Shown here: in pieces, positions 5,863-43,373 of the stretch
Position numbering within the stretch: the stretch's first letter is position 1
Layout of the letters: every line of letters begins with the position of its first letter
Assembly (NCBI GenBank): GCA_903869345.1
Contig: CAIPYM010000006.1
Span: 1-43,373, forward strand
DNA: 43,373 bases
DNA from: an uncultured Pseudomonadota bacterium
GTDB taxonomy: Bacteria > Pseudomonadota > Alphaproteobacteria > UBA9219
Direction of reading: 5' to 3'
Notes under the pieces: generated by a model
What the model was told of the DNA's origin: nothing
What the model saw: only the letters and a program-made list of their open reading frames with translations
Databases searched by the model: none
Position numbers and translations under genes: made by a program

Positions 5863-7059
5863 ATGACCCTCGACGTTTCTCCCCAGCTCCTCCCCGATCG
5901 CCTTCGGATGGCGCTGCCCAAGATCGCGACTCCCGCTTACGTGGTGGACGAGGTGCGGTTGCGCGAGAACCTGGAAACGGCGGCGCGGGTGCGGGCCGCG
6001 ACGGGGTGCCGGATGCTGCTTGCGACCAAGGCGTTCGCGATGCCCGCCGCGTTTCCGCTTATGCGTCCTTTCTTGGATGGCACGACGGCCAGCGGCCTTT
6101 ATGAAGCGCGGTTGGGGCGTGAGGAGTTTGGCAAAGAGGTTCACGTCTACGCGCCCGCGTACACCGAAGCCGAGGTCCAGGAACTCACGCACCTCGCCGA
6201 TCACATCACGTTTAATTCCGTGGACCAGGTGCGGCGATTCGCGCCGCTCGTGCGGGCGGCGGGGCGCGGTATCCGGACGGGCGTTCGCATCAACCCCGGA
6301 TATTCCTGCGCGACCGTGGGCGGGTCCAAATACGATCCGTGCTCGCCCCTATCCCGATTCGGCGTGCCCCTTCGAGAGCTTGATGCGTTACCGTGGGAGC
6401 TTGTGGACTTTCTGCACGTTCATGCGCTCTGCGAGGCAGACCATCGGGCTTCAGCATTGTTGATGGACCGTGTTGTCGACGTTTTGGGGCCGTACCTTGC
6501 TCGCGTGAAAGCGATCAACCTGGGTGGCGGGCATTTCCTCAACAAGCGGGGGTTTTATAACCCCGACGCGCTGATGGCGAGGCTTCGGGCTTTTCGGGAC
6601 GCGTTTCCCCACCTGGACGTGATTTTGGAGCCCGGCAGCGGGCTTGTGGTGGATGCCGGGTACCTGGTGACGAGCGTTTTAGACCTTGTGGATAACGGGG
6701 CCCACGTTGTTGCGGTTCTGGATTCCTCGTTCACGTGCCATATGCCGGACGTCCTGACGGCCCCCTACACACCCTCCGTCCTGGGTGCGACGACGGAGAC
6801 CGATGCGGCGAATCCCTTCGGGTACCTCCTGGGGGGCAAGACGTGCATGACCGGGGACCTCGCGGGCCCCTTTTTTTTCGCGCAGGCGTTAAAACCTGGC
6901 GACAAAATCGTTTTGGGCGATATGCTCCAGTACACCTTTGTTCAAGCGACGACGTTCAACGGAACGCCGCTGCCGGACCTCGGGTGGCTCGATGCGGCGG
7001 GCGCGTACCGCGTGGAGCGCGCGTTTGGGTACGCGGATTTTCGCACGCGCCTTGGATGA
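5863..7059 (+). CDS. nspC: Carboxynorspermidine/carboxyspermidine decarboxylase
   Basis: A 398-residue PLP enzyme of the alanine-racemase-fold decarboxylases. It removes CO2 from carboxy(nor)spermidine in the alternative bacterial spermidine pathway. K56 in LLATKAFAM is the predicted PLP lysine. The LDVILEPGSGLVVDAGYL segment, the SSFTCHMPDVL loop and GGKTCMTGDLAGPF (active-site Cys) are diagnostic of NspC rather than of diaminopimelate decarboxylase. The ATG at 5863 is chosen over an upstream TTG at 5806; the ATG at 5908 (MALPKIATPAYV) is a possible shorter start. The gene is followed 14 nt later by an agmatinase-like gene. The partner dehydrogenase is not in the window. Confidence 0.93.
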   Translation: MTLDVSPQLLPDRLRMALPKIATPAYVVDEVRLRENLETAARVRAATGCRMLLATKAFAMPAAFPLMRPFLDGTTASGLYEARLGREEFGKEVHVYAPAYTEAEVQELTHLADHITFNSVDQVRRFAPLVRAAGRGIRTGVRINPGYSCATVGGSKYDPCSPLSRFGVPLRELDALPWELVDFLHVHALCEADHRASALLMDRVVDVLGPYLARVKAINLGGGHFLNKRGFYNPDALMARLRAFRDAFPHLDVILEPGSGLVVDAGYLVTSVLDLVDNGAHVVAVLDSSFTCHMPDVLTAPYTPSVLGATTETDAANPFGYLLGGKTCMTGDLAGPFFFAQALKPGDKIVLGDMLQYTFVQATTFNGTPLPDLGWLDAAGAYRVERAFGYADFRTRLG

Positions 7060-7073
7060 AGGGAGAGTAACGT

Positions 7074-7988
7074 ATGCTGCCCTGTAAGCCCCCCGAAGAA
7101 AGTTTGTTTGCGTTAACCGCCGACGAGGCGTCGTCGTTTGATGAGGCCCGTGCGGTTCTGATTCCCTTCGGGCTTGAGAAAAGCGTGAGCTACGAGGAGG
7201 GCACGGCACAGGCTCCGCGTGCGATCCTTGAGGCGTCTTCGGAACTGGAGCCCTTCGACGAAGAGTATTGGTGCGAGGCCTGGCGACGTTATGGGTTTGT
7301 GACTCTGCACGAGCCCCCCATCGCGGATTCGTTGCCCGCAGCCTTGAATCAGTTGGACGGAATCGTGGAAGCGGTTTTGGCGGCGGGCAAGTTTCCGCTG
7401 ACGCTTGGCGGGGAGCACACGCTGACGGCGGGCGCGATTCGGCCCTTTGCGCGGCGGTACCCACGCCTCGGCGTTTTGCATTTTGACGCCCACGCCGATT
7501 TGCGCGACAGCTTTCGCGGCGAGCGGCACAGCCATGCGTGCGCGTTACGACGTGTGCTCGACAACCCCGAGGTTACACAACTCGTCTCTGTCGGCATTCG
7601 CAACATCTCGGCGGACGAGATTCCGTTTTTCGATTCCGAATCACGCAGCGAGCGTCTGCACATTTTCTTCACGAAAGACCGGGCACGGTGGTCGTTGGAG
7701 GACATTCTGCGTCCGCTGGAAGGTCTACCGGTTTACCTGACGTTTGACGTGGATGGATTCGACAGCAGCCTGATGCCCGCAACGGGAACGCCCGAGCCCG
7801 GTGGTTTGTTGTGGGATGAGACCATCGCGATCATCCGTGCAGCGGGTGAACGCTTGAATCTGGTCGGTGCGGACATCGTGGAATTGGCCCCGCGTCCGGG
7901 ACTGCACGCCTGCGATTTCTTGGCGGCTAAGCTAGCGTACAAGATCCTGAGTGCCGCTTTTCTGGCCCGCGCGAGCCGTTCCGTTTAG
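7074..7988 (+). CDS. speB: Agmatinase-type ureohydrolase
   Basis: A 304-residue member of the arginase/agmatinase superfamily. All binuclear Mn ligands are visible: H115 in GGEHT, D138-H140-D142 in FDAHAD, and D225-D227 in FDVDGFD. The enzyme would hydrolyse agmatine (or another guanidino compound) to putrescine and urea. GGGAGA lies just before the ATG at 7074. It forms a two-gene unit with nspC: putrescine made here could feed the carboxyspermidine route. Exact substrate within the family is inferred from this pairing. Confidence 0.88.
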   Translation: MLPCKPPEESLFALTADEASSFDEARAVLIPFGLEKSVSYEEGTAQAPRAILEASSELEPFDEEYWCEAWRRYGFVTLHEPPIADSLPAALNQLDGIVEAVLAAGKFPLTLGGEHTLTAGAIRPFARRYPRLGVLHFDAHADLRDSFRGERHSHACALRRVLDNPEVTQLVSVGIRNISADEIPFFDSESRSERLHIFFTKDRARWSLEDILRPLEGLPVYLTFDVDGFDSSLMPATGTPEPGGLLWDETIAIIRAAGERLNLVGADIVELAPRPGLHACDFLAAKLAYKILSAAFLARASRSV

Positions 7989-8031
7989 AAGTGTTGCGCG
8001 TTCTTCATCTTTCTTAACAACGGGAGGGGCA

Positions 8032-8058
8032 CGTGTTAAACACGAAGGGGGCTGATTC
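8032..8058. promoter_or_regulatory. Palindrome and GANTC site upstream of ctrA
   Basis: A perfect 13 nt palindrome CGTGTTAAACACG lies at 8032-8044, and a GATTC site (GANTC, the recognition sequence of the CcrM methylase) at 8054-8058, 40-66 nt before the ctrA start. A TTAA core sits inside the palindrome and another TTAAC at 8014-8018. In Caulobacter the ctrA promoter is controlled by CcrM methylation and by CtrA itself, so these are candidate control sites. They do not form the canonical TTAA-N7-TTAA box. Confidence 0.35.
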
Positions 8059-8097
8059 GTTGTCCCTGGTTTGAGAGCTGTCCGAACGAGGTTTCCC

Positions 8098-8868
8098 ATG
8101 CGCGTGTTGCTCGTTGAAGACGATCCCTCGGTTGCCAAGAGCATCGAACTGATGCTCCAGGCCGAAGGGTTTATTGTGGACGCCACGGACCTGGGTGAAG
8201 ACGGGCTTGAGATCGGCAAGATCTACGACTACGACATCATCATCCTGGATCTGATGCTCCCCGACATTGATGGGTACGATGTGCTTCGTCGCCTGCGTGC
8301 CGCGCGGGTGGAAACGCCGATTCTTATTCTCTCAGGCTTGGCCGAGCTGGACAACAAGTTGAAGGGCCTTGGGTTTGGGGCGGATGACTACCTTACCAAA
8401 CCCTTTGACCGCCGCGAGTTGGTGGCCCGCGTGCACGCGATTATCCGTCGCAGCAAAGGGCACGCTAACAATGTGATCCGCACAGGCAAGCTGACCATCA
8501 ATCTCGATACGCGCATGGTGGAGGCGAACGGTGCGCCCGTGCGCTTGACCAGCAAGGAATACGGCATTCTGGAAATGCTGAGTCTGCGCAAAGGGACGGC
8601 GCTCACCAAGGAGATGTTTCTGAATCATCTCTACGGCGGCGTGGATGAGCCCGACGTCAAGATCATTGATGTGTTTGTGTGCAAGCTGCGCAAGAAGCTG
8701 GCCGAGGCGTTGGGCGGGGATGACGGCTACATTGAAACCGTGTGGGGCCGTGGGTACTTGTTGCGCGATCCGCCGACTTCGACGGGGGCTGCTTCGGTGC
8801 CTCCTCCTCCGAAGGTCGTCAAGACTGCCCCGGCCAAGCGCATCAAAGCCAGTCGGAGTGAGGGGTAG
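8098..8868 (+). CDS. ctrA: Cell-cycle response regulator CtrA
   Basis: A 256-residue OmpR/PhoB-type regulator. Receiver domain 1-120 has acidic pocket E7-D8-D9, phosphoacceptor D51 in [13 protein letters not shown], and K in [12 protein letters not shown] winged-helix DNA-binding domain follows with [17 protein letters not shown] and ends at [16 protein letters not shown]. This sequence type is specific to alphaproteobacterial CtrA, the master regulator of cell cycle, motility and division. The ATG at 8098 begins exactly at the receiver. The protein has an extra C-terminal tail of about 25 residues rich in Pro, Lys and Ser that ends in S-E-G, not the Ala-Ala end used for ClpXP turnover in Caulobacter. 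Confidence 0.97.
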
Positions 8869-9059
8869 GGGCTTCCTGCTCTCTCCCATCGGTCCGGCGA
8901 AATCCGAGACTCCGAGACATGAAGCGGGACGCCGAAGATTCTCTCGGGGCTGAGGCATGAGGACTCGTGAAGGAAGACGGAACGGCCTTCTGAAATCCCC
9001 CGTGGTGCCTCGAGGTCGGACGGGATCAGGGTCTTTCTCCCGTGGGAGGAACTTGTGGG

Positions 9060-9506
9060 ATGACCGATGTGCATTTTTACCACCTGACGCGATCCTCGTT
9101 GGAGCAAGCCTTGCCCGAGGTGCTCGAGAAAGTTCTTGCGCGGGGCTGGCGGGCGGTTGTTGTGGCGGGCTCTGCCGAGCGCGTGGAATCTTTAACGCAA
9201 CACCTGTGGACCTACCGTCCCGACAGTTTTTTGCCCCATGGGGACGCCCGCGACGGGTTGCCTGAGCATCAACCGATCTGGATCACACCGGACGATGTGC
9301 GCTCCAACAACGCCGAGGTGCTGATTCTGACGGACGGCGCGGCATCGACGCACCTGGACGATTACGCGCGTGTCTGTGAGATGTTCGCGGGAGCCAACGA
9401 CGAGGCCTTGGCGGAGGCGCGTCGCCGCTGGCGAACGTACAAAGAACAGGACCACGGCCTGACCTATTGGCGCCAGGAACCCAAGGGATGGGTCCAACAG
9501 ACGTGA
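9060..9506 (+). CDS. holC: DNA polymerase III chi subunit
   Basis: A 148-residue HolC. The family pattern is clear: TDVHFYHLTRSSLEQALPEVLEK at the N-terminus, AVVVAGSAERVESLTQHLWTY, FLPHGDA, QPIWIT, and the C-terminal YKEQDHGLTYWRQEPKGW. Chi joins the clamp loader through psi and binds single-strand binding protein. GGGAGGA 10 nt before the ATG at 9060 sets the start. It stands alone here, without the pepA gene that often precedes holC in proteobacteria. Confidence 0.93.
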   Translation: MTDVHFYHLTRSSLEQALPEVLEKVLARGWRAVVVAGSAERVESLTQHLWTYRPDSFLPHGDARDGLPEHQPIWITPDDVRSNNAEVLILTDGAASTHLDDYARVCEMFAGANDEALAEARRRWRTYKEQDHGLTYWRQEPKGWVQQT

Positions 9507-24513: not shown

Positions 24514-24785
24514 GCTCACCGATCTCAATCCGTTTTTTCACCAGAGTATCCTGTAATGATGAAAGTAGGGTTAATCATGGGGCCTCGCTTGGATCGCTCT
24601 CGACCCTCGGCGAAGCACGCGAGGACGGGCTGCCGGGGTTGCGCTTTTATCTTGCTCCGAGGGGTGATTGGGGCTACCTCTTGCCCCGGTGTAGGTCCTG
24701 GGCGAGTTGCGTTGAAGCGACTCGGTGCGAAGGGTTTCTGGGGCCTTCCCGTCGTGTTTGAAAATCTCTTGTGGGGTGGACCAGG

Positions 24786-26816
24786 ATGGTGGGGGTACCC
24801 GCGCTTGTTGCGCTCACCCTTCTTTTGGCGGGGCTTGGTGGCGTTGGGCTTGTCGCGATTGCGCTTGGGCGATTTCCCGGCGTGGCACGGTGCGCCGTCT
24901 ATGGCCTGAGCGCGGCCCTGTGTGCGGCGATGGCGGGAATCGCGGGGGTGTTCTTGCTGGATCCCGCCTCGGACACCCAGACTCTTGAGCTTCCCTTTGG
25001 AATTCCGACCGTCGGGGCGCACCTGCGTTTGGACCCCCTTTCGGCGTTTTTCCTGATGCTGATCGGGGGGATTGGCGCGCTGTGCAGCATCTACGGCGAA
25101 TCTTACGGGCGGCATGATTCCGAGCCTCTGCGGATTTTGCCCTTCTACCCCGTGTTTCTGGCGGGCATGGGGCTTGTGACGTTGGCGGACGATGTTTTTG
25201 TGTTCCTGCTGGCGTGGGAGCTGATGTCGCTCGCCTCGTGGTTGATGGTGCTGGGGGGCAAGCGGGATGGAATCACGTTGCAGGCTGCCTACCTTTATTT
25301 GCTGATGGCCATGGGTGGGACGTTAGCGCTCGTGGGGGCGTTTGCCCTGATGTCGAGCGAGTCCGAAAGCTATGTGTTCAGCACCTTTCGCGCCCAGACG
25401 TTTCCGTCCCTGACGGCCAGTGCGGTTATTGTGCTGACCGTGATCGGGGCGGGGGCCAAGGCGGGATTCGTCCCTTTGCACGTGTGGTTGCCGCGTGCGC
25501 ATCCCGTTGCGCCGAGTCACGTCTCGGCTTTGATGAGCGGCGTGATGACCAAAATCGCGCTTTACGGTCTGATCCGCGTGGGGTTTGACCTTGTGGGCCT
25601 GCCCGAGGGGTGGTGGGGGGGGCTGTTGCTGGTGGTGGGAGGGGTCACGGCGGTTGCGGGCCTTTTGTACGCGATGGTGCAGACGGACCTGAAAGAAACG
25701 TTGGCGTACAGCACGATCAAGAACGTGGGGATTATTGCCATTGGCCTTGGGCTTGCGCTTGCGTTTCGGGCGTACGGTTTGCATGTTTTAGCCGGAGTCG
25801 CGCTGATCGCGGCTTTGTTCCACATCCTGAATCACGCGCTGTTTAAGAGCCTTTTGTTCCTCGGCGCGGGGGCTGTCGTTCAGGCGACGGGCACGCGGAA
25901 CATCGAGCAAATGGGCGGTCTGGGGCGCCGCATGCCCGCGACGGCGGCGTTCTTTTTCATCGGCTCGGTCGCTATTTCCGCGTTGCCGCCGTTCAACGGG
26001 TTTGTGTCCGAATGGCTGACGTTCCAAGCGCTTTTGGGTGGTGTAGCCTTGCCCGTCTGGACTCTGCGGCTTGCGACCCCCGTTGTCGCGGCGCTTGTGG
26101 CGTTGTCCGCTGCGTTGGCGGCTATGGCGTTTGTGCGACTCTACGGGGTTGTGTTCTTGGGGCGGCCCCGCGATCCCGCTGCAGCTCGGGCGCGGGATGT
26201 GGGGATCGGGATGTTGGGGCCCATGGCGATTTTGGCGGGCGCGTGCCTCGTTTTGGGAATCGTGCCTCTGGGGGGGCTTGTCGTTCTTCGGCCTGTGATG
26301 ATCGAGCTTTTGCCGCGTTCGGGGGCGGCGCTCGCGGCTTCGGACGTGCTGACGTTGGTGCCCTTGGCCGCCAGCGGGAGCGCGTACAGTGGGGTTCTGT
26401 TGGTGGGGGTTTTGCTGGTTTTGGGACTGGGGGCCCTGGGGGTCGTTCGGGTGCTTGCGGGGCGAGCCTGCGTTCGGCGGGGCCCGGCGTGGGATTGCGG
26501 ATTCCCGAGCGACGATCCGTCTGCACAGTACTCGGCGGCCAGTTTCGCCCAACCCGTGCGGCGCGTTCTGGGGGGCTTGGTTTTTGGGATTCGGGATGTT
26601 GTGACGATGCCGCCGCCGGGGTCGATGCGGGCGGCGGTCCACAAGGTGACGCTGGACGATCGGCTGTGGAAGGGCCTTTACGCGCGGCTGGGGTGGGGTG
26701 TGCATCGCTTGGCGGTTGAGGCGGATCGGGCGCGGCAGATGACCATTCGCCATTACCTGATGATCATGTTCGGGTTGACGCTTGCGCTTCTCTTTCTGGT
26801 GGCGGTGACGGCATGA
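24786..26816 (+). CDS. hyfB: Hydrogenase-4 component B-like antiporter subunit
   Basis: A 676-residue, very hydrophobic protein of the Mrp/NuoL family, HyfB type. Ion-channel residues are visible: Glu in LLAWELMSLASWL, Lys in GAGAKAGFVPLHVWLPRAHPVAPSHVSALMSG, and His/Lys in ALFHILNHALFKSLLFLGAGAV. The C-terminal cytosolic-type tail RRGPAWDCGFP is typical of HyfB/HycC. GTGGA lies 6 nt before the ATG at 24786; a GTG at 24771 is an alternative. It opens a six-gene operon; its stop overlaps the next start by 4 nt. Predicted to move protons or Na+ across the inner membrane. Confidence 0.92.
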   Translation: MVGVPALVALTLLLAGLGGVGLVAIALGRFPGVARCAVYGLSAALCAAMAGIAGVFLLDPASDTQTLELPFGIPTVGAHLRLDPLSAFFLMLIGGIGALCSIYGESYGRHDSEPLRILPFYPVFLAGMGLVTLADDVFVFLLAWELMSLASWLMVLGGKRDGITLQAAYLYLLMAMGGTLALVGAFALMSSESESYVFSTFRAQTFPSLTASAVIVLTVIGAGAKAGFVPLHVWLPRAHPVAPSHVSALMSGVMTKIALYGLIRVGFDLVGLPEGWWGGLLLVVGGVTAVAGLLYAMVQTDLKETLAYSTIKNVGIIAIGLGLALAFRAYGLHVLAGVALIAALFHILNHALFKSLLFLGAGAVVQATGTRNIEQMGGLGRRMPATAAFFFIGSVAISALPPFNGFVSEWLTFQALLGGVALPVWTLRLATPVVAALVALSAALAAMAFVRLYGVVFLGRPRDPAAARARDVGIGMLGPMAILAGACLVLGIVPLGGLVVLRPVMIELLPRSGAALAASDVLTLVPLAASGSAYSGVLLVGVLLVLGLGALGVVRVLAGRACVRRGPAWDCGFPSDDPSAQYSAASFAQPVRRVLGGLVFGIRDVVTMPPPGSMRAAVHKVTLDDRLWKGLYARLGWGVHRLAVEADRARQMTIRHYLMIMFGLTLALLFLVAVTA

Positions 26817-27769
26817 CCTTGTTTTCGCTGGCCCTGGATGTCGCGCACGTGGGGCTCACGGTCGCCGTTGCGCCGTTGCTGACGGGATGGGTGCGGTGGG
26901 TGAAGGCGCGGCTGACGTTGCGCCGGGGGCCTTCGCCCTTTCAGCCCTACCGGGATTTGCGCCGCCTTTTGCGCAAGGACATTGTGCTTGCCGACAGCGT
27001 GTCGTGGGTGTTCATCGCAACGCCGTTTGTTCTCTTCGCGATCATGGCGCTTGCGGCGTGTCTGGTGCCGACGTTCACCCCCTCCTTGGCGTTGGCCCCT
27101 ACGTCGGATTTGATCACGCTGGTGGCTCTGTTAGGCCTTGCGCGGTTCATGCTGGCCTTGGCGGGAATGGACGCGGGGACGAGTTTTGGCGGTCTGGGAT
27201 CAAGCCGTGAAATGCTGATCGCCACGTTGGCGGAACCTGCGATGCTGATGGTTGTTTTTTCTGTCGCGCTGATGGCGCATACCACGGCTTTACCTAACGT
27301 TGCGCTGTTTGTGCTGGCGCATCCGCCTGTTTTTCACATCTCGCTGGTGCTGGCGTTGAGCGCGTTGGTGCTGGTGGCCCTGGCGGAAAACGCCCGCATT
27401 CCGATTGACAACCCAACGACGCACCTTGAGCTGACGATGGTCCACGAGGCGATGATTTTGGAATACACGGGGCCTCACCTCGCGCTGATTGAAGCGGCGG
27501 CGATGATCAAGTTGACCCTTTACGTGGCGCTGATCGCTTGCTTGTTCGCGCCCTGGGGCATGGCGACGGATCTGTCCGACGCTCGGGTCGTGGCGCTGGG
27601 AATCGGGACGTACCTTGGCAAGCTGGCTGTGGCGGGAACGGCGCTGGCCGTGTTTGAGACGGGAATCGCCAAGATGCGAGTCTTTCGCTACCCCGAGTTT
27701 CTGGGGACCGCGCTCTTGATGGGGCTTTTGGCCATTGTGTTCCTTTACGTGAATCAGGTGGTGTCGTGA
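26813..27769 (+). CDS. hyfC: Hydrogenase-4 component C-like (NuoH-type) membrane subunit
   Basis: A 318-residue NuoH/HyfC membrane anchor with about eight hydrophobic segments. The conserved cytosolic parts KARLTLRRGPSPFQPYRDLRRLLRKD and VALAENARIPIDNPTTHLELTMVHEAM are diagnostic of the hydrogenase-type HyfC/HycD group. This subunit joins the soluble electron-transfer module to the ion-pumping arm. It overlaps hyfB by 4 nt (ATGA) and hyfE by 4 nt (GTGA). Confidence 0.93.
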   Translation: MTLFSLALDVAHVGLTVAVAPLLTGWVRWVKARLTLRRGPSPFQPYRDLRRLLRKDIVLADSVSWVFIATPFVLFAIMALAACLVPTFTPSLALAPTSDLITLVALLGLARFMLALAGMDAGTSFGGLGSSREMLIATLAEPAMLMVVFSVALMAHTTALPNVALFVLAHPPVFHISLVLALSALVLVALAENARIPIDNPTTHLELTMVHEAMILEYTGPHLALIEAAAMIKLTLYVALIACLFAPWGMATDLSDARVVALGIGTYLGKLAVAGTALAVFETGIAKMRVFRYPEFLGTALLMGLLAIVFLYVNQVVS

Positions 27770-28461
27770 TTTTTGCGTTACCCCTCGAGCCCGCAACCCT
27801 TGCCGACATCGCTCAGGCCTTAAGCGTGGGGGTGATGCTGTGCGGGTTTTGGATGTTGTTGCAGCGTCGGCTCGTCAACGTTGTACGCACGTACGCGGCG
27901 CAGGCGTTCTTGTTGGCGCTCGCGGCGGCGTGGCAGGCCTACGTGCAGGACGAACGCCAATTGTTGACAACCGCTGTGATCATTCTGGTGGCCAAAGCCC
28001 TGATTGTGCCAGCGGTCCTTAACCGCATTATCGTGAAACTGGATCTTCGACGAAGCGTCGCCACGAGCGTGGGGTTTGGCAGGGGGCTCGTGGGGGCCAT
28101 GGGGCTTGTTGGTTTTTCCATGCTTTTGGTATTTCCTGTGACGACGACCTCGGGGGCGTTGACGCGGGAGACGTTGGCGATGGCGCTTTCGGTCGTGTTT
28201 CTGGGGTTTTGGATGATCATCACGCGCAACCGGGCGATTAGCCAAGTGATTGCTCTGATGGCGCTTGAAAACGGGGTGTTGCTGGCCGTTGTTGGGGTGA
28301 AGGGGATGCCGCTCGTGGTGGAGATGATCACGGCGGTTCTTGTGCTGTTGACGTTCATGGTTTTCGGCATCTTTTTCTTCCACATCCGCACACGGTTTGA
28401 TTCTTTGGACGTTCGGAATCTGGAGCGCGTGCACATCATTCCTTGGCTTCGGTCCTCATGA
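27766..28461 (+). CDS. hyfE: Hydrogenase-4 component E-like membrane subunit
   Basis: A 231-residue membrane protein with about six or seven hydrophobic helices. The match to HyfE is clear from LTRETLAMALSVVFLGFWMIITRNRAISQVIALMALENGVLLAVV and the end FHIRTRFDSLDVRNLERVH. HyfE contains a NuoK-like part with a conserved Glu (in ALENG). The GTG start overlaps the hyfC stop, and the stop overlaps the hyfF start, so expression is coupled. Confidence 0.92.
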   Translation: MIFALPLEPATLADIAQALSVGVMLCGFWMLLQRRLVNVVRTYAAQAFLLALAAAWQAYVQDERQLLTTAVIILVAKALIVPAVLNRIIVKLDLRRSVATSVGFGRGLVGAMGLVGFSMLLVFPVTTTSGALTRETLAMALSVVFLGFWMIITRNRAISQVIALMALENGVLLAVVGVKGMPLVVEMITAVLVLLTFMVFGIFFFHIRTRFDSLDVRNLERVHIIPWLRSS

Positions 28462-29969
28462 CGCTGATTCTGCTTCCGATCCTTTTGGGGATCCCCGCCC
28501 TCGGCGCGCTGATTCTTGGGTTCCTGCCCGCAAGGACGGGGGCCGCGTGGATGAATGTGGCGTTTAGCGCGGCGACGCTGGCGGTTGCGGGGGTGTTTGT
28601 GAGCGGGCCACTTCCTCCGCCGACGCTCTTTGTCCTGGTGGACGACCTGAATCGTCTGATGATCGCGTTGATCGCTTTCGTGGGATTCACGACCAGCCTT
28701 TTCAGCGTGGGCTACCTGCAGCGCGAGATCGACAGCGGGCACCTGAAGGGCTTTCCGGCGCGGCTTTACCATCCCCTTTTTCAGATTTTCGTGGGGATGA
28801 TGCTTCTCGCGGTTGTGAGCAACAACCTCGGCGTTCTCTGGGTGGCGATGGAAGGCGGCACGCTGGCAACCGTGTTCCTTGTTGCCTCGGCGCAGACCGA
28901 CCAAGCGATTCGCGCGGCGTGGAAATACCTGATGCTGTGCAGCGTTGGAATCGCGCTGGCCCTGCTGGGGACAACGTTGATTTATTTTGCGGCGCAGCCC
29001 GTTTTGGGCGAGGGGCTGAACGCAATGGCCTGGTCGGGGCTTCAAGAGGTGGCGGCGGACCTGAATCCCGCCTTGATGGGGATGGCGTTTGTTTTTCTGC
29101 TTGTGGGGTACGGGACCAAGATTGGGCTTGTTCCCCTGCATGCGTGGTTGCCCGATGCGCACGGTGAGGGCCCGGCCCCTGTGTCGGCGATGCTGTCGGG
29201 GCTGTTTTTGGGCGTGGGGCTTGTGGCCCTCTTGCGCATCAAGACGCTTATGGGGCCGTTGGTGAGCCCGCTCATCCCTGGGCCTGCGATGATGGCGCTG
29301 GGACTCGTGTCGTTGGCTTTTTCCGGGTTCATGCTGTACCGCCGTCGCTACTACAAGTTTGGGCTGGCCTATTCGTCCATTGAGCACATGGGCATCGCGA
29401 CGTTCGCGTTGGGGCTGGGGGGGCCTTTGGCCGCGTTCGCGGGGCTCTTGCACCTGCTGGCGCACGGGTTGATCAAGGCCTCCCTGTTCTCGATCGGGGG
29501 CGTTGTGGTGCAGATCAAAGGTGTGCAGGACATGAAGGCCCTTCGGGATCTGACCACCACGCATCCGATGGTGGGATGGGCCCTGGTCGCGGGGTTTTTG
29601 GCGTTGATGGGATTGCCGCCGTTCGGTCTTTTCCTCAGTGAGCTGCTTTTGTTGGTGGCGGTTGTGACAGTTCAACCTTGGTTGGCGGTGGTGCTCGCGT
29701 TGGGGATTCTTGTCGCGACGGGGGCTTTGTTGCTTTTCCTGCAACGCATGGCCTTTGGGAAGGAGCCGGGGTTGCCCGGTCTGGACGCTGGGGCCGCGAT
29801 CGAGTTGCCTGCGGTGGGCAAGCCCGTGGAATGGAGCAAGGCCAGTCTTTGTGTGTTCCTGATGATTCCCGTGGGGTTGAATCTGGCGGCGGCGGTCGCG
29901 TTGGGGTTAGGGCTTTTGGGGCCCGTGGGGGATTGGTTGGTCCGCGCGGCCAAGGTCGTGGGGTCGTAG
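28458..29969 (+). CDS. hyfF: Hydrogenase-4 component F-like antiporter subunit
   Basis: A 503-residue Mrp/NuoN-M-like antiporter subunit. Channel residues include Glu in WVAMEGGTLATVFLV, Lys in GYGTKIGLVPLHAWLPDAHGEGPAPVSAMLSG, and HLLAHGLIKASLFSIGG. IEHMGIATFALGLGG is typical of HyfF. The ATG at 28458 overlaps the hyfE stop by 4 nt. With HyfB it gives two antiporter-type subunits; the third (HyfD), found in E. coli hydrogenase-4, is absent. Confidence 0.92.
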   Translation: MTLILLPILLGIPALGALILGFLPARTGAAWMNVAFSAATLAVAGVFVSGPLPPPTLFVLVDDLNRLMIALIAFVGFTTSLFSVGYLQREIDSGHLKGFPARLYHPLFQIFVGMMLLAVVSNNLGVLWVAMEGGTLATVFLVASAQTDQAIRAAWKYLMLCSVGIALALLGTTLIYFAAQPVLGEGLNAMAWSGLQEVAADLNPALMGMAFVFLLVGYGTKIGLVPLHAWLPDAHGEGPAPVSAMLSGLFLGVGLVALLRIKTLMGPLVSPLIPGPAMMALGLVSLAFSGFMLYRRRYYKFGLAYSSIEHMGIATFALGLGGPLAAFAGLLHLLAHGLIKASLFSIGGVVVQIKGVQDMKALRDLTTTHPMVGWALVAGFLALMGLPPFGLFLSELLLLVAVVTVQPWLAVVLALGILVATGALLLFLQRMAFGKEPGLPGLDAGAAIELPAVGKPVEWSKASLCVFLMIPVGLNLAAAVALGLGLLGPVGDWLVRAAKVVGS

Positions 29970-29973
29970 AGCC

Positions 29974-31509
29974 ATGGAATCTTCCTCACCTCTGATGGTT
30001 TTTTTGGCGGAAAAGGCCCCGGTGTTTCTGCAAGCTCCCTGGGCGTTCGTCCGCCTGACGCGTCCGGGATGGTGTGAGTTGATCGCTCGTCTGGACACGA
30101 CCCCCGCGTGGGCTCTTTTGGCGTTATGGGCCGAGCCCAAGGATGTTCACGCGGCCCTGTACGATGAAGAATCCGGGGCGTTCGCGCTGGTCGCGTTAGC
30201 GTGTCCCGAGGGCTCGTTTCCGTCCTTCAGCGGTGCTCGTCCGGGGGCCGTTCGGTTTGAACGCGCCATTCAGGACCTGGTGGGGCTTCGGGCCGAAGGG
30301 CTGGAGGATCAGCGTCCTTGGTTGGATCACGGCCAATTTCCCGTGCGTCATCCTTTGGCGGCATCCCCGGAAGACCAACCGCCTGTGCCGCGTGCAGCAA
30401 CGGACTATGCGTTCTTGCCCACTCAAAGCAACGTGGTCCTGCATCAGATTCCCGTGGGGCCTGTGCATGCCGGGATCATCGAGCCCGGCCATTTCCGTTT
30501 TCACGCGAACGGTGAAACGGTTGTTCGGCTGGAAGCGCGTTTGGGGTACGTCCACAAAGGCGTTGAGAAACTGTTCGAGGGGAAGACCCCTGCCGAAGGG
30601 GCGCGGCTCGCGTGCCGTATCTCCGGCGACAGCGCCGTTGCCCACGCCGTCGCGTTTGCGCGGTCCGTGGAGTCGGCGGTTGGCGTGGAGGCTCCTCCCC
30701 GCGCCCATGCGCTTCGGGGAATCATGGCTGAGGTGGAGCGCATCGCCAATCACCTCGGGGATGTGGGGGCCATTGGGAACGACGCGGCGTTTGCGTTTCT
30801 GTTGGCGGTCTGTGGCGTGGAGCGTGAGCGCACGCTGGAGGTTGCGGGGGCGTGTTTTGGGCATCGGCTGATGATGGACACGGTCGTGCCCGGAGGTGTC
30901 ACGGTGGACCTTGCGCCCGAGAGCATCGAGCGCTTGCGGGCCTGGGCAGCGCGCTTGAGCCATGAAGCCCCGCGTCTTGAATCGCTTTACGATTCCACTT
31001 CGTCGCTTTTAGAGCGCACGATGACGACGGGCGTCGTGTCGGCGGCGCTGGTGCATCGCTTCGCGGCGGGCGGGTATGTCGGACGCGCTTCGGCACGCGG
31101 GTTTGATGCGCGGACGGCGGCGCCTTACCCGCCTTACACGGATCTTGATGTGACCGTGCCCGTGTTCAGCGAGGGCGATGTGGACGCGCGGATGCGTGTG
31201 CGGTTGCGCGAAATCCCCGCGAGTTTGAACCTGATAACGGCTCTTCTTGATTCATTACCTGAAGGGCCGACCGGGGTGCCTTTGCCGACGCGGGCGGGGG
31301 AGGGCGTGGCGCTGGTCGAAGGATTCCGGGGCGAGATTCTGACCTGGACGCGCCTGGGGGCCGATGGACGGATCAAACGCTGTCACCCACGGGATCCGTC
31401 GGGACTGCAGTGGCCTTTGCTCGAAGCCGCGATTGAGGGCAACATCGTCGCCGACTTTCCCCTCTGCAACAAATCGTTCAACGGCTCGTATTCCGGGCAC
31501 GACCTTTAA
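29974..31509 (+). CDS. Hydrogenase-like large subunit without Ni-Fe cysteines (Ehr type)
   Basis: A 511-residue fusion: an N-terminal NuoC-like part (about 1-130) and a C-terminal NuoD/NiFe large-subunit-like part (about 150-511), the architecture of HyfG/HycE. The start of the catalytic part (QIPVGPVHAGIIEPGHFRF, then LGYVHKGVEKLFEG) aligns well with HycE. At the first metal-ligand motif, where HycE has R-V-C-G-I-C-G-F-A-H, this protein has R215-I-S217-G-D-S220-A-V-A-H224, so both Cys are Ser. At the C-terminus the DPCxxC motif is replaced by D494-F-P-L-C498-N-K-S. It therefore cannot bind a normal Ni-Fe centre. No C-terminal processing peptide is seen. It resembles energy-converting-hydrogenase-related complexes. 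Confidence 0.88.
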   Translation: MESSSPLMVFLAEKAPVFLQAPWAFVRLTRPGWCELIARLDTTPAWALLALWAEPKDVHAALYDEESGAFALVALACPEGSFPSFSGARPGAVRFERAIQDLVGLRAEGLEDQRPWLDHGQFPVRHPLAASPEDQPPVPRAATDYAFLPTQSNVVLHQIPVGPVHAGIIEPGHFRFHANGETVVRLEARLGYVHKGVEKLFEGKTPAEGARLACRISGDSAVAHAVAFARSVESAVGVEAPPRAHALRGIMAEVERIANHLGDVGAIGNDAAFAFLLAVCGVERERTLEVAGACFGHRLMMDTVVPGGVTVDLAPESIERLRAWAARLSHEAPRLESLYDSTSSLLERTMTTGVVSAALVHRFAAGGYVGRASARGFDARTAAPYPPYTDLDVTVPVFSEGDVDARMRVRLREIPASLNLITALLDSLPEGPTGVPLPTRAGEGVALVEGFRGEILTWTRLGADGRIKRCHPRDPSGLQWPLLEAAIEGNIVADFPLCNKSFNGSYSGHDL

Positions 31510-31525
31510 CGGGGAGGCGTTTGGC

Positions 31526-32041
31526 ATGTTGTTCCCTCTCCTTCGCGCGTTGGGTCGGCGGCCCGTCACCCAGCCTGCGCTTGCGCCGAACCCCGACGAT
31601 CTGGTGCAGCTGGCGCAAAGCCTTCAGGAACGTGCCCGCGCACGGCTGGGGCGGAGCCTTGCGATCCGGCAGGTGGACGCGGGATCGTGCAACGGGTGCG
31701 AACTTGAAATTCACGCGCTGAACAATGCCGTCTATGCGCTCGAGCGTTTCGGGATCAGGTTCGTGGCCTCGCCGCGTCATGCGGACGTTTTGTTGGTGAC
31801 GGGGCCCGTGACCGTCAACATGCGCGAGGCGCTTTTACGGACCTACGAGGCAACCCCGTCCCCGAAGTGGGTTGTGGCGGTCGGGGCCTGCGCCCTGGAC
31901 GGCGGCGTGTTCGCGGGGAGCTACGCCGTGGTGGGCGGCGTGGGCCAGGTGATCCCGGTGGACCTTGTTATCCCTGGATGCCCCCCGACTCCGCGTCGGT
32001 TGCTTGAAGGCTTGTTGGCGCTTCTGGAGACGGCGAAGTGA
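31526..32041 (+). CDS. Hydrogenase-like small subunit (HyfI/NuoB type)
   Basis: A 171-residue electron-transfer subunit. Four cysteines that bind the proximal [4Fe-4S] cluster are intact: C55 and C58 in DAGSCNGCELEI, C122 in VGACALDGG, and C152 in VIPGCPPTPRRLL. The family is HyfI/HycG/NuoB. The ATG at 31526 is chosen since GGGGAGG lies 8 nt before it; the frame is open further upstream inside the large-subunit gene. It ends the operon. The intact cluster next to a large subunit without Ni-Fe ligands suggests electrons pass to another acceptor, such as a quinone-like or soluble carrier. Confidence 0.9.
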   Translation: MLFPLLRALGRRPVTQPALAPNPDDLVQLAQSLQERARARLGRSLAIRQVDAGSCNGCELEIHALNNAVYALERFGIRFVASPRHADVLLVTGPVTVNMREALLRTYEATPSPKWVVAVGACALDGGVFAGSYAVVGGVGQVIPVDLVIPGCPPTPRRLLEGLLALLETAK

Positions 32042-33328: not shown

Positions 33329-33919
33329 ATGTTGTGGGATGGGATATGTCGCCTAAGCTTTTGGGGGTTGATCGCCCTGATGCTCGCGCCAGATTGCTGT
33401 CAGGCCAGGAATATTCAGTCGTTCACCCTTTCAGATGATGGCCAACATTTAACCATCGTGTTGTCCGATAAAACGTCGTTTTCTGCGCCTCGTGATGGAT
33501 CGAATAACTTTGTGCCGGTTGAACAACAGGAGGGGTTTAGGGATGTCTTTGTATCTCCCAACCGTCAATTGATTGGGTGGACCGCCACTTTTCCAAATCT
33601 TAGCATGTCGTATCCGGTTTCTCTTTCCCTGGTGATTCACGATGGTGTGCGGGTTGTTCGTACGCTTTCCAACGAGTGGGGAATCATTTCCAGTTGGCAT
33701 TTTTCTCCTGATAGTCGATCGGTTGTGTATCGCACGGAGTTTCCACACGGCCTTTCTCCTGTAGAGTTCCGAAGGGTGCGCATCGCGGATGGCAAGACGT
33801 CGGCGATTTTTTCATGCTATCCGCCTGATCCCAAGCAACAGGTGTTGAAATGGAGTCACCCACCAAAGTGGACGAGGGCTTCCGATCTCCCGTGCGCTTG
33901 GGATGCGTCTACCCGGTGA
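33329..33919 (+). CDS. Secreted hypothetical protein with beta-propeller-like repeats
   Basis: A 196-residue protein with a signal peptide (to about residue 26, L-M-L-A-P-D-C-C-Q-A-R; the Cys pair could also suggest a lipoprotein, but the lipobox is poor). Phrases such as DVFVSPNRQLIGWTA and WHFSPDSRSVVYRTE match the 'SPDGxxLAY' pattern of TolB/WD40-like propeller strands. Only two or three such strands are present, too few for a closed propeller. No function can be given. GTGAGG precedes the ATG. Its GC content is lower than that of neighbours, and it lies between convergent/divergent housekeeping genes, so it may be acquired. Confidence 0.6.
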   Translation: MLWDGICRLSFWGLIALMLAPDCCQARNIQSFTLSDDGQHLTIVLSDKTSFSAPRDGSNNFVPVEQQEGFRDVFVSPNRQLIGWTATFPNLSMSYPVSLSLVIHDGVRVVRTLSNEWGIISSWHFSPDSRSVVYRTEFPHGLSPVEFRRVRIADGKTSAIFSCYPPDPKQQVLKWSHPPKWTRASDLPCAWDASTR

Positions 33920-38691: not shown

Positions 38692-41600
38692 TTAAAAAAA
38701 CCTACGGGAAACGGTAGGTGCAGAGGCGAAGCGGTGCCCCAGCCGCTCCAGGTACAGGTACACGACCGGCGTGATGAAGAGCGTCAGGGCTTGGGAGACC
38801 ACAAGTCCGCCGAGGACGGCCACGCCCAACGGCTGACGCACCTCCGCCCCCTCGCCAAGCCCGACCGCAACGGGGATCGCCCCAAACAGAGCCGCCGCTG
38901 TCGTCATCATGATGGGACGAAACCGTAGGGCACAGGCTTGGCGAATGGCCTCTTCCGCCGCAAGGCCCTGGCGACGCAGATTCAGGGCGACATCCACCAT
39001 CATAATCGCGTTCTTCTTGACGATTCCGATCAGAAGTACGATCCCGATAATGGCGATGACGTCGAGGTCAAACCCCGTCAGCACCAACATGATAATTGCG
39101 CCGAGTCCCGCCGACGGCAGGCCCGAAAGAATCGTCAGCGGGTGGATGAAGCTTTCGTACAGCATCCCCAGAATGATGTAGATCACCAGAACCGTCAGAA
39201 GAATCAGGAATCCCTGCCCCGCGACGGAGGCCTGAAACGCCTGTGCCAACCCCTGAAAATCGGTCACGATGCTGGTTGGCAGCGCGAGGGACGATTCCAG
39301 TGCGTGCAGCCGGTCCACGGCCTGGCCGAGGGCGACCCCCGGCGCAAGGTTGAACGAAATGGTTACGGAGGGCAGCTGCCCCTGGTGCGCGATGGACAAC
39401 GGCCCCGTTCCCTTGGACAGTGCCGCGACCGACGCGAGCGGCACCAGCGCCCCCGTCGCGCTGCGCACATAAATGTTCTGAATGTCCTGTGGATCGCGTT
39501 GGTCCGCGCGGGGCACTTCCAAAATCACCTGGTAACTGTTGGACGGCGTGTAGAGCGTGGCCACCTGAGCGTTGCCAAACGCGGCGTAAAGTGTGCTGCG
39601 CAAAACTTCATCGTTCACGCCCAGACGTGCCGATTCGTCGGCGTTGGGGGAAACCCGCGCCTCCAAACTTTTCAGGTAAACGTCCGTCGTCACGTCCCGA
39701 AACGCGGGCTCATGGGCCAGGACGCCCTCGATTTTCGCAGCCCAGGCGTAAAGTTCCGCAAGATCGCTTCCACGCAGCGTGTACTGGTAGAGGCTCTTGG
39801 CCGGACGTCCCCCAATTTGCAGATTTTGCACCGGCTGCAGGAAGACGCTCAGGCCCGGTACCGCGCTGGCTTCCTCACGCAAACGGCGAAGAACAACACC
39901 CACCGGCGGGCGTTGGTTGTGCGGCTTCAGGCCAATGAACATCCGGCCCGCGTTGGTCTGGCTGCGCCCGCCGCCCATGGCCACGAACACATGATCCACG
40001 GCAGGATCTGCCGCGAAGATCCGCGCGACCTCTTTGTGCTTGGCTTTCAGGGCATCAAAGCCGATGTCCTGGGCCGCCTCGGTTGCGACAAACGCGAAGC
40101 CCGTATCCTCCAGGGGAATAAACCCCTTAGGGGCGTAAATGTAAGCCGCGATCGCGACCACCAACGTGAACAGCGTGACCCCGAGCATCATGCGTTGGTG
40201 ATGCAGCGTCGCATCCAGGGCCCGCGCGTACCCCCGTTGCAGGGCCGAAAATCCGGCGGCGAGTCTTCGCCCGACCGCGCCTTCGTGTTCTTCCGTTCGG
40301 TGCGGGCGCAACCACCGGCTGCACAGCATCGGCGTGAGCGTCAGGGCCAAAAGGCCGGAGATCAGCACAGCCAGGCTGAGCGTGATCGCAAACTCCCGGA
40401 ACAGACGGCCAACAACGCCCCCCATAAAGATGACGGGAATGAACACGGCCACCAGCGACAACGTCATGGACAGGACCGTGAACCCGATTTCTTGCGAGCC
40501 CTTCAGCGCTGCCTCCCAAACCGATAGGCCTTTTTCGATGTGGCGCGTGATGTTCTCAAGCACCACAATCGCGTCATCCACCACGAGCCCGACGCACAGT
40601 GTGAGCCCCAAAAGCGAAATGTTGTTGATGCTGAACCCCAACGCCGCCATGCCCGCGCACGTTGCGATCAACGAGAGCGGCACGACAACAGCGGGAATAA
40701 ACGTCGCTGCCGCGCTCCGCAAAAAGAGGAAAATGACCCCTACGACAAGCACAATCGTGATGCCCAGCGTCACCTGCACCTCGTTCACCGCGTTGCGAAT
40801 TGCGACGGACCGATCAAAGAGCGGTGTCAACGTAACCGAGGCCGGAACCTGCGACCGGAAATTCGGCAACAGCTTGCGCACGCTGTCCACCACGTCCACG
40901 GTGTTCGCGTCCGGCTGACGCTGAACGGCAAGAACCACCGCCTTGCGTCCATCAATCGCGCCGTACGTGTAGAGGTCTTCGACTGAATCGCTAACCGTGG
41001 CCACATCGTTCAGACGCACGGGCGCACCTGACCTCCACGCAATCACGCGCGAGCGAAAACCGTCCGCATCTTTGGGCTGGCCAACAACCTTGAGCGTGAA
41101 CAGCTGCGGCCCACCGTTCAGCACCCCGGTCGGTTTAATGGAGGCCGCCGCGCCGAGGGCTTGGCTCAGGTCCTGAAAACTCAGATCATGCGCGGCCAGG
41201 GCCTGCGGGTTCGCCTGCACGCGCACGGCGTACTTTTGCGCCCCAAAGACCTGCACTTGCGCCACGCCGGGCAACGTCGAAATGCGTTGCGAGAGCAGCG
41301 TTTCAGCGATTTCGTCCACGTCGGCGACGGGCAGCGTGTCAGACGACACGGCGATGAACAGAATCGGCTGGTCGGCAGGATTCACTTTCTGGAACGAGGG
41401 GGCGGAGGTCATCTCGGCGGGTAATCGCCTTTGCACCGTCGCGATGGCCGCCTGAACATCCAGCGCCGCTCCGTCAATGTCGCGGTCGAGGTTGAATTGC
41501 AAAATGATGTTTGTGGACCCGAGCGCACTCGTGGAGGTCATCGAGTCGAGACCCGCGATCGTTGAGAACTGACGCTCCAGGGGCGTTGCGACCGACGAGG

Positions 41601-41778
41601 CCATGGTCTCCGGGCTCGCCCCCGGCAGGGAGGCCGACACCGAGATGGTCGGAAAATCCACGCGCGGCAATGCGCTCACGGGCAGCGCCCTGTACCCCGC
41701 CAGCCCCGCCACCACGAGCGCCAGGGTCAGCAGCGTCGTGAAAACCGGGCGACGAATGCAGAAGGTCGAAAGAATCAT
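38692..41778 (-). CDS. RND multidrug efflux permease (MdtB/MuxB-like)
   Basis: A 1028-residue inner-membrane pump of the hydrophobe/amphiphile efflux family. It starts with the typical CIRRPVFTTLLTLALVVAGLAGYRALPVSALPRVDFPTI. The proton-relay aspartates are in GLVVDDAIVVLENI (TM4), and the second half repeats the fold (GIVKKNAIMMVDVAL). Sequences around FDRSVAIRNAVNEVQ and NNISLLGLTL are nearest to MdtB/MdtC. MdtABC has two permeases, but only one is found here. Its ATG overlaps the adaptor stop by 4 nt. No TolC-like outer-membrane gene is nearby. The last codons overlap a terminator. Confidence 0.95.
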   Translation of the reverse strand: MILSTFCIRRPVFTTLLTLALVVAGLAGYRALPVSALPRVDFPTISVSASLPGASPETMASSVATPLERQFSTIAGLDSMTSTSALGSTNIILQFNLDRDIDGAALDVQAAIATVQRRLPAEMTSAPSFQKVNPADQPILFIAVSSDTLPVADVDEIAETLLSQRISTLPGVAQVQVFGAQKYAVRVQANPQALAAHDLSFQDLSQALGAAASIKPTGVLNGGPQLFTLKVVGQPKDADGFRSRVIAWRSGAPVRLNDVATVSDSVEDLYTYGAIDGRKAVVLAVQRQPDANTVDVVDSVRKLLPNFRSQVPASVTLTPLFDRSVAIRNAVNEVQVTLGITIVLVVGVIFLFLRSAAATFIPAVVVPLSLIATCAGMAALGFSINNISLLGLTLCVGLVVDDAIVVLENITRHIEKGLSVWEAALKGSQEIGFTVLSMTLSLVAVFIPVIFMGGVVGRLFREFAITLSLAVLISGLLALTLTPMLCSRWLRPHRTEEHEGAVGRRLAAGFSALQRGYARALDATLHHQRMMLGVTLFTLVVAIAAYIYAPKGFIPLEDTGFAFVATEAAQDIGFDALKAKHKEVARIFAADPAVDHVFVAMGGGRSQTNAGRMFIGLKPHNQRPPVGVVLRRLREEASAVPGLSVFLQPVQNLQIGGRPAKSLYQYTLRGSDLAELYAWAAKIEGVLAHEPAFRDVTTDVYLKSLEARVSPNADESARLGVNDEVLRSTLYAAFGNAQVATLYTPSNSYQVILEVPRADQRDPQDIQNIYVRSATGALVPLASVAALSKGTGPLSIAHQGQLPSVTISFNLAPGVALGQAVDRLHALESSLALPTSIVTDFQGLAQAFQASVAGQGFLILLTVLVIYIILGMLYESFIHPLTILSGLPSAGLGAIIMLVLTGFDLDVIAIIGIVLLIGIVKKNAIMMVDVALNLRRQGLAAEEAIRQACALRFRPIMMTTAAALFGAIPVAVGLGEGAEVRQPLGVAVLGGLVVSQALTLFITPVVYLYLERLGHRFASAPTVSRRFF
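38693..38719 (-). terminator. Intrinsic terminator overlapping the RND permease stop codon
   Basis: On the minus strand ACCTAC-CGTTTCCC-GTAGGT is followed by seven Ts. The stem encodes the residues P-T-V-S-R-R and the T run encodes F-F and the start of the TAA stop, so the terminator is inside the coding end. It would end the efflux operon. Confidence 0.75.
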
Positions 41779-42902
41779 GACGCACCTTTCGACGGCGATT
41801 CTTCAGGGGAGGGCGGCACGCTCACATCCGAACGTGGCGCAACCCGCGCGCCGTCCGTCAGGCGCAAGAGGCCGTCTGTCACAACAATTTCGCCTTCCTC
41901 AAGGCCGTCTGACACCACGGCCTCGGTGCCCAAAACCCGCGCGATGTGAACGGGACGTTTGTGGGCGGTGGTCGTTGTGGGATCGACCACGAACACAAAC
42001 AGCGCGTCCTCAGGGCCCTGCACGGCCTTGGCCGGAAGGACGAGGGCGTTTTTCAGCGTCCCAAGATCCAAGGTTAAGGTGACAAACATCCCTGGCCAGA
42101 GGCTTTCATCGGGGTTGGCAAACCGTACGCGGATCGGGAGCGTGCCCGTCGCGGAATCCAGCGCATTGTCCCAAGAATCGAGCGTCCCCGGCCATGTCCG
42201 GTCACTGCCCTCGCGCCTCGCCGTGACGGGCACAGATCCCTCGTGGGCGATGCGGATCAGGGATTCGTAAAACCGCTGGGGCAACGCCGCCTGAACCACC
42301 AGAGGGTCCACTTGGTTGATCGTGACAAGCGGCTGCGTGTCGTTGGCCTTGACCGTGTTGCCGACCGTCACGCGCACAGGTCCTGCGCGGCCCGTGAGGG
42401 GTGAGCGAACAACGGTGTACCCGAGCGACACAACCGTTGATCGCAGCAGGGCCTCTTGCGCCCGAAACGCGGCCAAATTTTGGTCCAACGTCTCGTTCGT
42501 CGCGTAGCCCCGCTCCGCCAGTTTTCGGGTACGTTCGTACTGAGCTTTGAGCGCGACAAGTTGGGCGGCCAGACGAGTCTTGTCGGCTTGCAGGGCCTTA
42601 TCGTCCAGACGGAAAAGCACATCGCCCTTCCGCACAAACGCGCCGTCTTTCAAGGCAACCTCAATCAACTGTGAATCCAGTCGCGTCTTGATGGCAACGG
42701 TTTGCAAGGGCTGCACCGTCCCGACAACCTCCACCGTCTCGGGCGCATCGCGCCGAGTCACAGCCTCGGTCACGACGACCACGGGCGCAGCGGGGGGGGC
42801 TGTTGTCGCCTTTTTCGCAAAAGGTCCGACGTGAAATCCCCAAGCCAGCGCCAGAGCGACCAGCACAACGCCACCCAGTCCCACAATTCGCTTCTGACGC
42901 AT
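41775..42902 (-). CDS. RND efflux periplasmic adaptor (membrane fusion protein)
   Basis: A 375-residue MdtA/AcrA-type adaptor. One N-terminal transmembrane anchor (about residues 8-26) is followed by lipoyl-like halves with VETVEVVGTVQPLQTVAIKTRLDSQLIEVALKDGAFVRKGDVLFRLDDKAL, a coiled-coil hairpin (about 100-160), and beta-barrel DPLVVQAALPQRFYESL and PGMFVTLTLDLG. The ATG at 42902 is chosen as GGAGG lies 8 nt upstream; an ATG at 42920 would add six residues. It overlaps the permease gene by 4 nt. Confidence 0.94.
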   Translation of the reverse strand: MRQKRIVGLGGVVLVALALAWGFHVGPFAKKATTAPPAAPVVVVTEAVTRRDAPETVEVVGTVQPLQTVAIKTRLDSQLIEVALKDGAFVRKGDVLFRLDDKALQADKTRLAAQLVALKAQYERTRKLAERGYATNETLDQNLAAFRAQEALLRSTVVSLGYTVVRSPLTGRAGPVRVTVGNTVKANDTQPLVTINQVDPLVVQAALPQRFYESLIRIAHEGSVPVTARREGSDRTWPGTLDSWDNALDSATGTLPIRVRFANPDESLWPGMFVTLTLDLGTLKNALVLPAKAVQGPEDALFVFVVDPTTTTAHKRPVHIARVLGTEAVVSDGLEEGEIVVTDGLLRLTDGARVAPRSDVSVPPSPEESPSKGAS

Positions 42903-43373
42903 CCCCAATCCTCCGGTCATGAGGGGCGAAGCAACGCACCGCCCAACCCGTAGCTTACACCTCCGAGGGACTGTGCAGGAAATCAGGGTCTGTTCACGAG
43001 AACGAGCCCTGAAGAAAACGAAACCGAGGACGGTTGATCTTCACGAGGTTTTCTGCGGCGTGCTGTACGCGCTTTTTGTTACCCTTCCTCTGGGGGAGTC
43101 CGGATACCGCAAGGCCCGAACCCCCTGGAACTATCCCCGTCTATGTCCCCCCTGTTTTCCTCAAGGGCGGGCCTCGTGACGCGGGATTAGGTCGTGGGAT
43201 AAAAAAAGACGAAAAACCCAACTCCCTGAAAAACAACAATAAAAAGGCAAAATATGGCGGAGAGGGGGGCCGTCTAAGTGAGGCTGTAAGCCATTGCTTT
43301 TCATTGTTATTTACAACCGAGAGGAATTATCTCCCCCAATTTCTCCCCCTAAATAAATGCCGTTGAACACCGA
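42903..43373. other. 471 nt region upstream of the efflux operon, to the window end
   Basis: No supported gene. It should hold the promoter of the minus-strand efflux operon, but no clear pair was found. The last 170 nt are clearly AT-richer than the rest of the window. Confidence 0.35.

Follow-up and report, generated by a model that had tools for sequence, protein, structure and literature searches.

An Ehr-type operon with conserved replacements of the Ni-Fe ligand cysteines in an uncultured alphaproteobacterium

Organization of the operon

The window, i.e., the whole stretch of 43,373 nucleotides that was analysed, carries a compact operon of six mostly overlapping genes in the order hyfB-hyfC-hyfE-hyfF-hyfG-hyfI (24771-32041), in which the large subunit is the fifth. 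The genes and their best family matches are as follows:

24771..26816, + strand: hyfB-like (EhrA), an antiporter-like membrane protein of 681 aa (NCBIfam NF005086, "hydrogenase 4 subunit B", 732 bits, exceeding the cut-off of 667)
26813..27769, + strand: hyfC-like membrane anchor of the NuoH/HycD type, 318 aa (Pfam NADHdh, 7e-33; aligned with HyfC)
27766..28461, + strand: hyfE-like, a small membrane protein of 231 aa (1.5e-16 to NCBIfam NF008556, hydrogenase 4 membrane subunit, under the cut-off)
28458..29969, + strand: hyfF-like second antiporter-type subunit (NCBIfam hydrogenase 4 subunit F, 2.3e-156, 521 bits against a cut-off of 533)
29974..31509, + strand: hyfG-like (EhrL) large subunit, 511 aa (Pfam Complex1_49kDa, 1.6e-33; NiFeSe_Hases, 4.1e-07; Complex1_30kDa, 1.2e-05)
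31526..32041, + strand: hyfI-like (EhrS) small subunit of roughly 171 aa, counted from ATG 31526 (Pfam Oxidored_q6, 1.6e-34)

The hyfC gene overlaps hyfB via ATGA and hyfE overlaps hyfC via GTGA. For hyfF, whose open reading frame is listed from 28443, the ATGA overlap indicates ATG 28458 as the likely start. A Shine-Dalgarno-like GGGGAGG is located at 31511-31517, before hyfI. In the alignment, HyfB and HyfF have kept their Glu, Lys and His stretches, and these antiporter-like subunits would be expected, from their sequences, to translocate ions. The large subunit is composed of an N-terminal 30-kDa-like domain fused to a 49-kDa/NiFe-like domain devoid of Ni-Fe ligands. The small subunit is predicted to carry one [4Fe-4S] cluster, the putative ligand cysteines of which were counted among 95 sequences of the clade:

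31688..31699, + strand: CxxC, proximal-cluster cysteines 1 and 2, with hydrogenase-like spacing (both Cys in 95 of 95)
31889..31891, + strand: third proximal-cluster cysteine (GAC; 95 of 95)
31979..31981, + strand: fourth proximal-cluster cysteine (GCP; 94 of 95, with one gap)

Past the operon and a prephenate dehydratase-like gene on the opposite strand, and just downstream of them, lies an open reading frame of 196 aa without a Pfam match (33329-33919, + strand). The window also codes for an AcrB-type RND pump of 1028 aa together with a membrane fusion protein (38692-42920, - strand).

Replacement of the Ni-Fe ligands and its conservation

Four features of the large subunit bear on the site which, in group 4 hydrogenases, holds the metal:

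30481..30483, + strand: E170, equivalent of MbhL E21 (kept in 136 of 137 relatives)
30616..30645, + strand: first ligand motif, RISGDSAVAH, residues 215-224, replacing RVCGICxxxH (translation and alignment)
31480..31497, + strand: second ligand motif, NGSYSG, residues 503-508, replacing DPCYSC (alignment)
31498..31509, + strand: natural C-terminus, H-D-L-stop, without a cleavable extension (comparison with HycE)

The original prediction held that this protein reads R215-I-S-G-D-S-x-x-x-H224 where HycE has its RVCGIC motif, and both the translation of 30616-30645 and the alignment confirm it; the aligned segment in HycE and HyfG of E. coli K-12 is RVCGICGFAH. The codons of the two serines (TCC and AGC) are each one base away from TGC. 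The change had been described as a paired Cys-to-Ser replacement. Both cysteines are indeed replaced, but the loss extends beyond a pair, as those of DPCYSC are also gone: the window protein reads SFNGSYSGHDL followed by the stop, versus SLDPCYSCTDR in HycE and HyfG. Each of the four positions that carry a Ni-Fe cysteine in HycE is thus substituted (S217, S220, S505 and G508), and D219, the counterpart of which is Ile in HycE, represents a further conserved novelty. The flanking Arg, Gly and His were likewise said to be kept; His224 is present in the window protein, but within the clade position 224 is Tyr in 91 and His in 34 of the 137 distinct Ehr large subunits, and the argument from a kept His does not hold there.

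HycE extends 32 residues past TDR, at which point the window protein stops; this C-terminal tail of HycE is removed by the protease HycI, at a position which we take to be about the same place as the C-terminus of the window protein. The C-terminus is at the same place, with the tail absent, in those Ehr large subunits that were checked. Since the four cysteines are replaced and the cleavable tail is missing, the conclusion that the complex is no hydrogenase, being unable to bind a Ni-Fe(CN)2CO centre, is well supported.

Among the 137 distinct Ehr large subunits, D219 and G508 are invariant (137/137), followed by G218 (135/137), S217 (134/137), S505 (131/137) and S220 (124/137); a minority has Ala, Thr or Met in place of S217 or S220. 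The old metal site is thus lined with nearly invariant polar residues, namely D219, N503, Y506, D510 and E170. As the mean column identity of the alignment is 59-60%, the conservation of SGDS is not due to chance. Eighty of the relatives (including Azospirillum, Rhizobium, Bradyrhizobium, Mesorhizobium, Magnetospirillum and Rhodopseudomonas) came from a scan of genome contigs in which they were chosen by the peptides IEPGHFRF and [VI][AP]DFPLCN, such that columns 169-176 and 492-499 are biased toward conservation and the SGDS and SYSG columns are unaffected; the others came from whole-genome searches. Among the 57 relatives from outside the peptide-chosen scan, 48 contain SGDS and the remaining nine differ in one position.

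For 12 related pairs, dN/dS ranged from 0.09 to 0.22. The Ehr clade, including a fast-evolving offshoot, was split from group 4 and NuoD with a support of 100/100 in trees built from proteobacterial and plasmid-borne relatives. No relatives were found in the viral contigs searched. The clade-wide conservation of the replacements and the low dN/dS mean that the Ni-Fe cysteines were lost long ago and that their absence is a maintained trait rather than decay. Selection had been predicted from the window alone, with random substitutions in the clade named as the sign of lost function; the substitutions found in the clade are specific and conserved.

Maturation genes, electron input and related forms

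The product of hypD is required for making the Fe(CN)2CO part of the Ni-Fe centre. With a positive E. coli control, hypD was not found in the window's own genome (99.31% complete) and was missing from 9 of the 15 Ehr-carrying genomes, own genome counted. The six genes of the operon include neither a ferredoxin-type subunit (HyfH/HycF) nor a maturation protease, and the same is true for the annotated operons of relatives. A blastp search of about 96 loci detected no relative of HyfA, HyfH, HycB, HycI or HyfJ within Ehr operons, and the identical search recovered subunits of these types in true group 4 loci; the single weak ferredoxin-like match in the Ehr loci lies at the far edge of one of them (L045). 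Independent backing for a loss of Ni-Fe chemistry comes from the absence of the second motif, of the tail and of hypD, HycI and HyfH. The operon is devoid of any electron-input gene and can occur without Ni-Fe maturation.

Clustering of 817 neighbouring open reading frames from 97 loci revealed no dedicated partner gene, no family being present in more than seven loci. In the window's own genome there is no match above the curated cut-off for TIGR01591 (formate dehydrogenase) or nifH; because both are missing there, formate dehydrogenase and nitrogenase were ruled out as a general electron donor.

Azospirillum argentinense Az39 holds both a true hydrogenase 4 and an Ehr: one plasmid bears hydrogenase 4 as a full operon that includes FdhF, HycI and Hyp genes, and the Ehr large subunit is on a plasmid of this species, NZ_CP007794, the accession of which adjoins that of the former. 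Elsewhere, a Ni-Fe large subunit of the true type (L168:7833-8909, genome G053) has DPCISCTER directly at the stop, with no cleavable C-terminal extension, and is located beside NuoE/F/G-like genes.

Several variants of the complex were encountered. A Rhodococcus plasmid codes for an SGDT large subunit with the same six subunits, and the large subunits on Burkholderia and Caballeronia plasmids read RVSGVDS. On the Burkholderia cenocepacia plasmid, such a large subunit is accompanied by a small subunit with an N-terminal ferredoxin-like domain (L175:10124-10924), with a DUF190 gene nearby; this fusion suggests a ferredoxin-like electron entry in the B. cenocepacia form, the one checked. In the Ehr-like small subunit on a Mycobacterium branderi plasmid (L170:10312-11106), none of the four proximal-cluster cysteines is left (GSNGSDE, VGTDA and PGAP), the large subunit beside it reads RVEGIAS, and this form is possibly redox-silent. 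Phylogenetically, the forms from Burkholderia and Mycobacterium are placed between Ehr and group 4. The fast-evolving offshoot, with RINAVDS (L152 and L153, from the small genomes G058 and G450), branches inside the Ehr clade with a branch length of about 4-5; it retains the small-subunit CxxC, and E170 and H165 are lost in L152. Real decay is exemplified by genome G432, of the same family as G058, where a degenerate Ehr large subunit reads RIDATRC and the small subunit has GSP for GCP (L154, - strand, 6845-9331).

In four plasmid records (H1, H11, H28 and H32), Ehr large subunits are labelled "nickel-dependent hydrogenase large subunit" or "HypE". Both labels mislead, and automatic ones such as the former are wrong for these genes.

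Proposed function and comparison with known systems

Ehr is an established class of group 4-like complexes lacking the Ni-Fe ligands, the function of which is described as unknown (PMC6349859, PMC10284858, PMC12342949, PMC7304191), and its published definition is the loss of the Ni-Fe cysteines (PMC6349859, PMC10284858, PMC12342949, PMC7894505). Such complexes are found in nitrifiers, rhizobia, Azospirillum and metal reducers. Geobacter EhrL, EhrS, EhrA-1 and EhrC were found by proteomics (PMC7894505), and the class is therefore made in cells. Judged by its features and the published definition, the window complex is a member of this class: a group 4-like large subunit without Ni-Fe ligands (definition in PMC6349859) is encoded in an operon with antiporter-like, NuoH-like, HyfE-like and NuoB-like subunits.

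The complex is probably an ion pump powered by a redox reaction other than hydrogen chemistry, and we consider it likely that its Ehr-type large subunit has exchanged the cysteines for a pocket rebuilt around a non-metal substrate. On the branch leading to the clade, the four Ni-Fe cysteines were replaced and an Asp was fixed between the first two positions, and purifying selection has retained one [4Fe-4S] cluster, E170 of the MBH type and a pair of proton-channel subunits linked by the HyfC anchor. By homology, electrons may pass between a soluble low-potential carrier, docked at the single cluster, and the non-metal substrate in a pocket rebuilt from S217, D219, E170, N503 and Y506, and this transfer may drive the pumping of H+ or Na+ by HyfB and HyfF, or the reverse. 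The clade has retained one cluster and the pumping parts with no known electron entry, and the related Burkholderia form, with its fused ferredoxin domain, is in keeping with this proposal. Nevertheless, a single cluster without an input subunit is unusual in a redox pump, no conserved neighbour points to a partner, model confidence is low in the pocket regions, and the Mycobacterium relative, having lost its cluster cysteines, hints that redox chemistry may be dispensable in some lineages.

A quinone-like substrate is no more than our leading guess, and the original prediction had likened the pocket to the quinone site of NuoD. The stronger form of this idea, i.e., a quinone oxidoreductase that works like complex I with a pocket accepting the quinone head group, is conceivable though on balance doubtful. 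Superfamily and fold are shared, and a NuoD copy is also present in the window's own genome. The predicted model of the large subunit (mean pLDDT 81, pTM 0.86) matched HycE in VIA with a Z of 38.0 over 473 residues, followed by complex I 49-kDa chains (Z about 34-36), one of which contains a modelled quinone; MBH and MBS are absent among the VIA rows, which is no evidence against them. The pLDDT is below 50 at residues 145-194 and 488-511, the pocket strands, so that the model cannot settle quinone binding. The quinone-binding residues of complex I are H38 and Y87 of Nqo4, and the key residue of MBH, E21 of MbhL, is missing in NuoD (PMC7684303). In the alignment (ungapped numbering), H38 and Y87 correspond to I169 and G218, and a NuoD-like quinone site is thus not borne out at the residue level. 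D270, at the conserved Asp position of NuoD (Asp in 136/137), would favour the quinone reading, but it has a counterpart in MbhL and is thus non-discriminating. The small subunit, moreover, has the hydrogenase-type CxxC, whereas in complex I the two cysteines are adjacent (CC; PMC7684303). As aligned, the pocket is not NuoD-like at the Nqo4 residues, with the MBH glutamate retained and D219 added; a quinone could bind through other contacts.

A more speculative and rather unlikely reading is a minimal complex-I-type machine with one Fe-S cluster and no electron-input subunit, in which a pocket built on the invariant Asp of Ser-Gly-Asp and on Asn-x-Ser-Tyr-x-Gly-x-Asp would catalyse a redox reaction new to the superfamily, possibly reversed by the proton gradient. 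It is improbable that the peripheral arm is a non-redox structural or gating cap over the proton/sodium channel pair: the missing electron input genes and the M. branderi relative without cluster cysteines would fit such a cap, but the retention of the four cysteines in 94-95 of 95 members of the clade is difficult to account for if no cluster is present. Binding of another metal or metal cofactor, through side chains of Ser, Asp, His/Tyr and Glu, is likewise improbable; near-invariant D219, N503, Y506, D510 and E170 do surround the former metal site, but no maturation or metal-insertion gene accompanies the operon, His224 is variable and the serines at 217 and 220 are exchangeable in a minority. 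Decay of the gene since hydrogenase function was lost can practically be dismissed, as the six-gene overlapping operon is intact, the replacement residues are conserved and dN/dS among relatives is low, even though every Ni ligand is gone and degenerate copies such as that of G432 are known elsewhere.

The analysis replaces a vague "hydrogenase-like" label with specific residues and tests: the site is strongly selected, four cysteines rather than two are replaced, and the replacing residues are now named.

Like the window complex, the Ehr of Geobacter sulfurreducens (GSU0739-0745) and that of Nitrospira consist of group 4-like large and small subunits with antiporter-like, HyfE-like and membrane subunits; the name EhrA-1 suggests more than one NuoL-like EhrA in Geobacter, versus one hyfB in the window. 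The E. coli formate hydrogenlyase and hydrogenase 4 share the fusion of a 30-kDa-like with a 49-kDa-like part, hyfB, C, E, F, G and I are all found in the window, and HycE is the best solved relative of the large subunit (7z0s_E, 7.5e-55), followed by MbhL. In contrast to hydrogenase 4 and HycE, the window lacks the Ni-Fe cysteines (RISGDS and NGSYSG in place of the two CxxC motifs), the C-terminal extension, HyfA, HyfD, HyfH, HyfJ and HycI, as well as hypD in the genome. Compared to the Pyrococcus MBH, it retains the MbhL glutamate as E170 but lacks an MbhN-type ferredoxin subunit. The Pyrococcus MBS (Mbx) has also lost Ni-Fe cysteines; its large subunit retains two of the four and its proximal cluster is held by three cysteines (PMC7684303), whereas the window complex has none of the four and a four-cysteine CxxC cluster. 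With NuoD/Nqo4 of complex I it shares the fold and the Arg and Asp positions, but not the quinone-binding His and Tyr, and its operon is without NuoI, NuoE, NuoF and NuoG.
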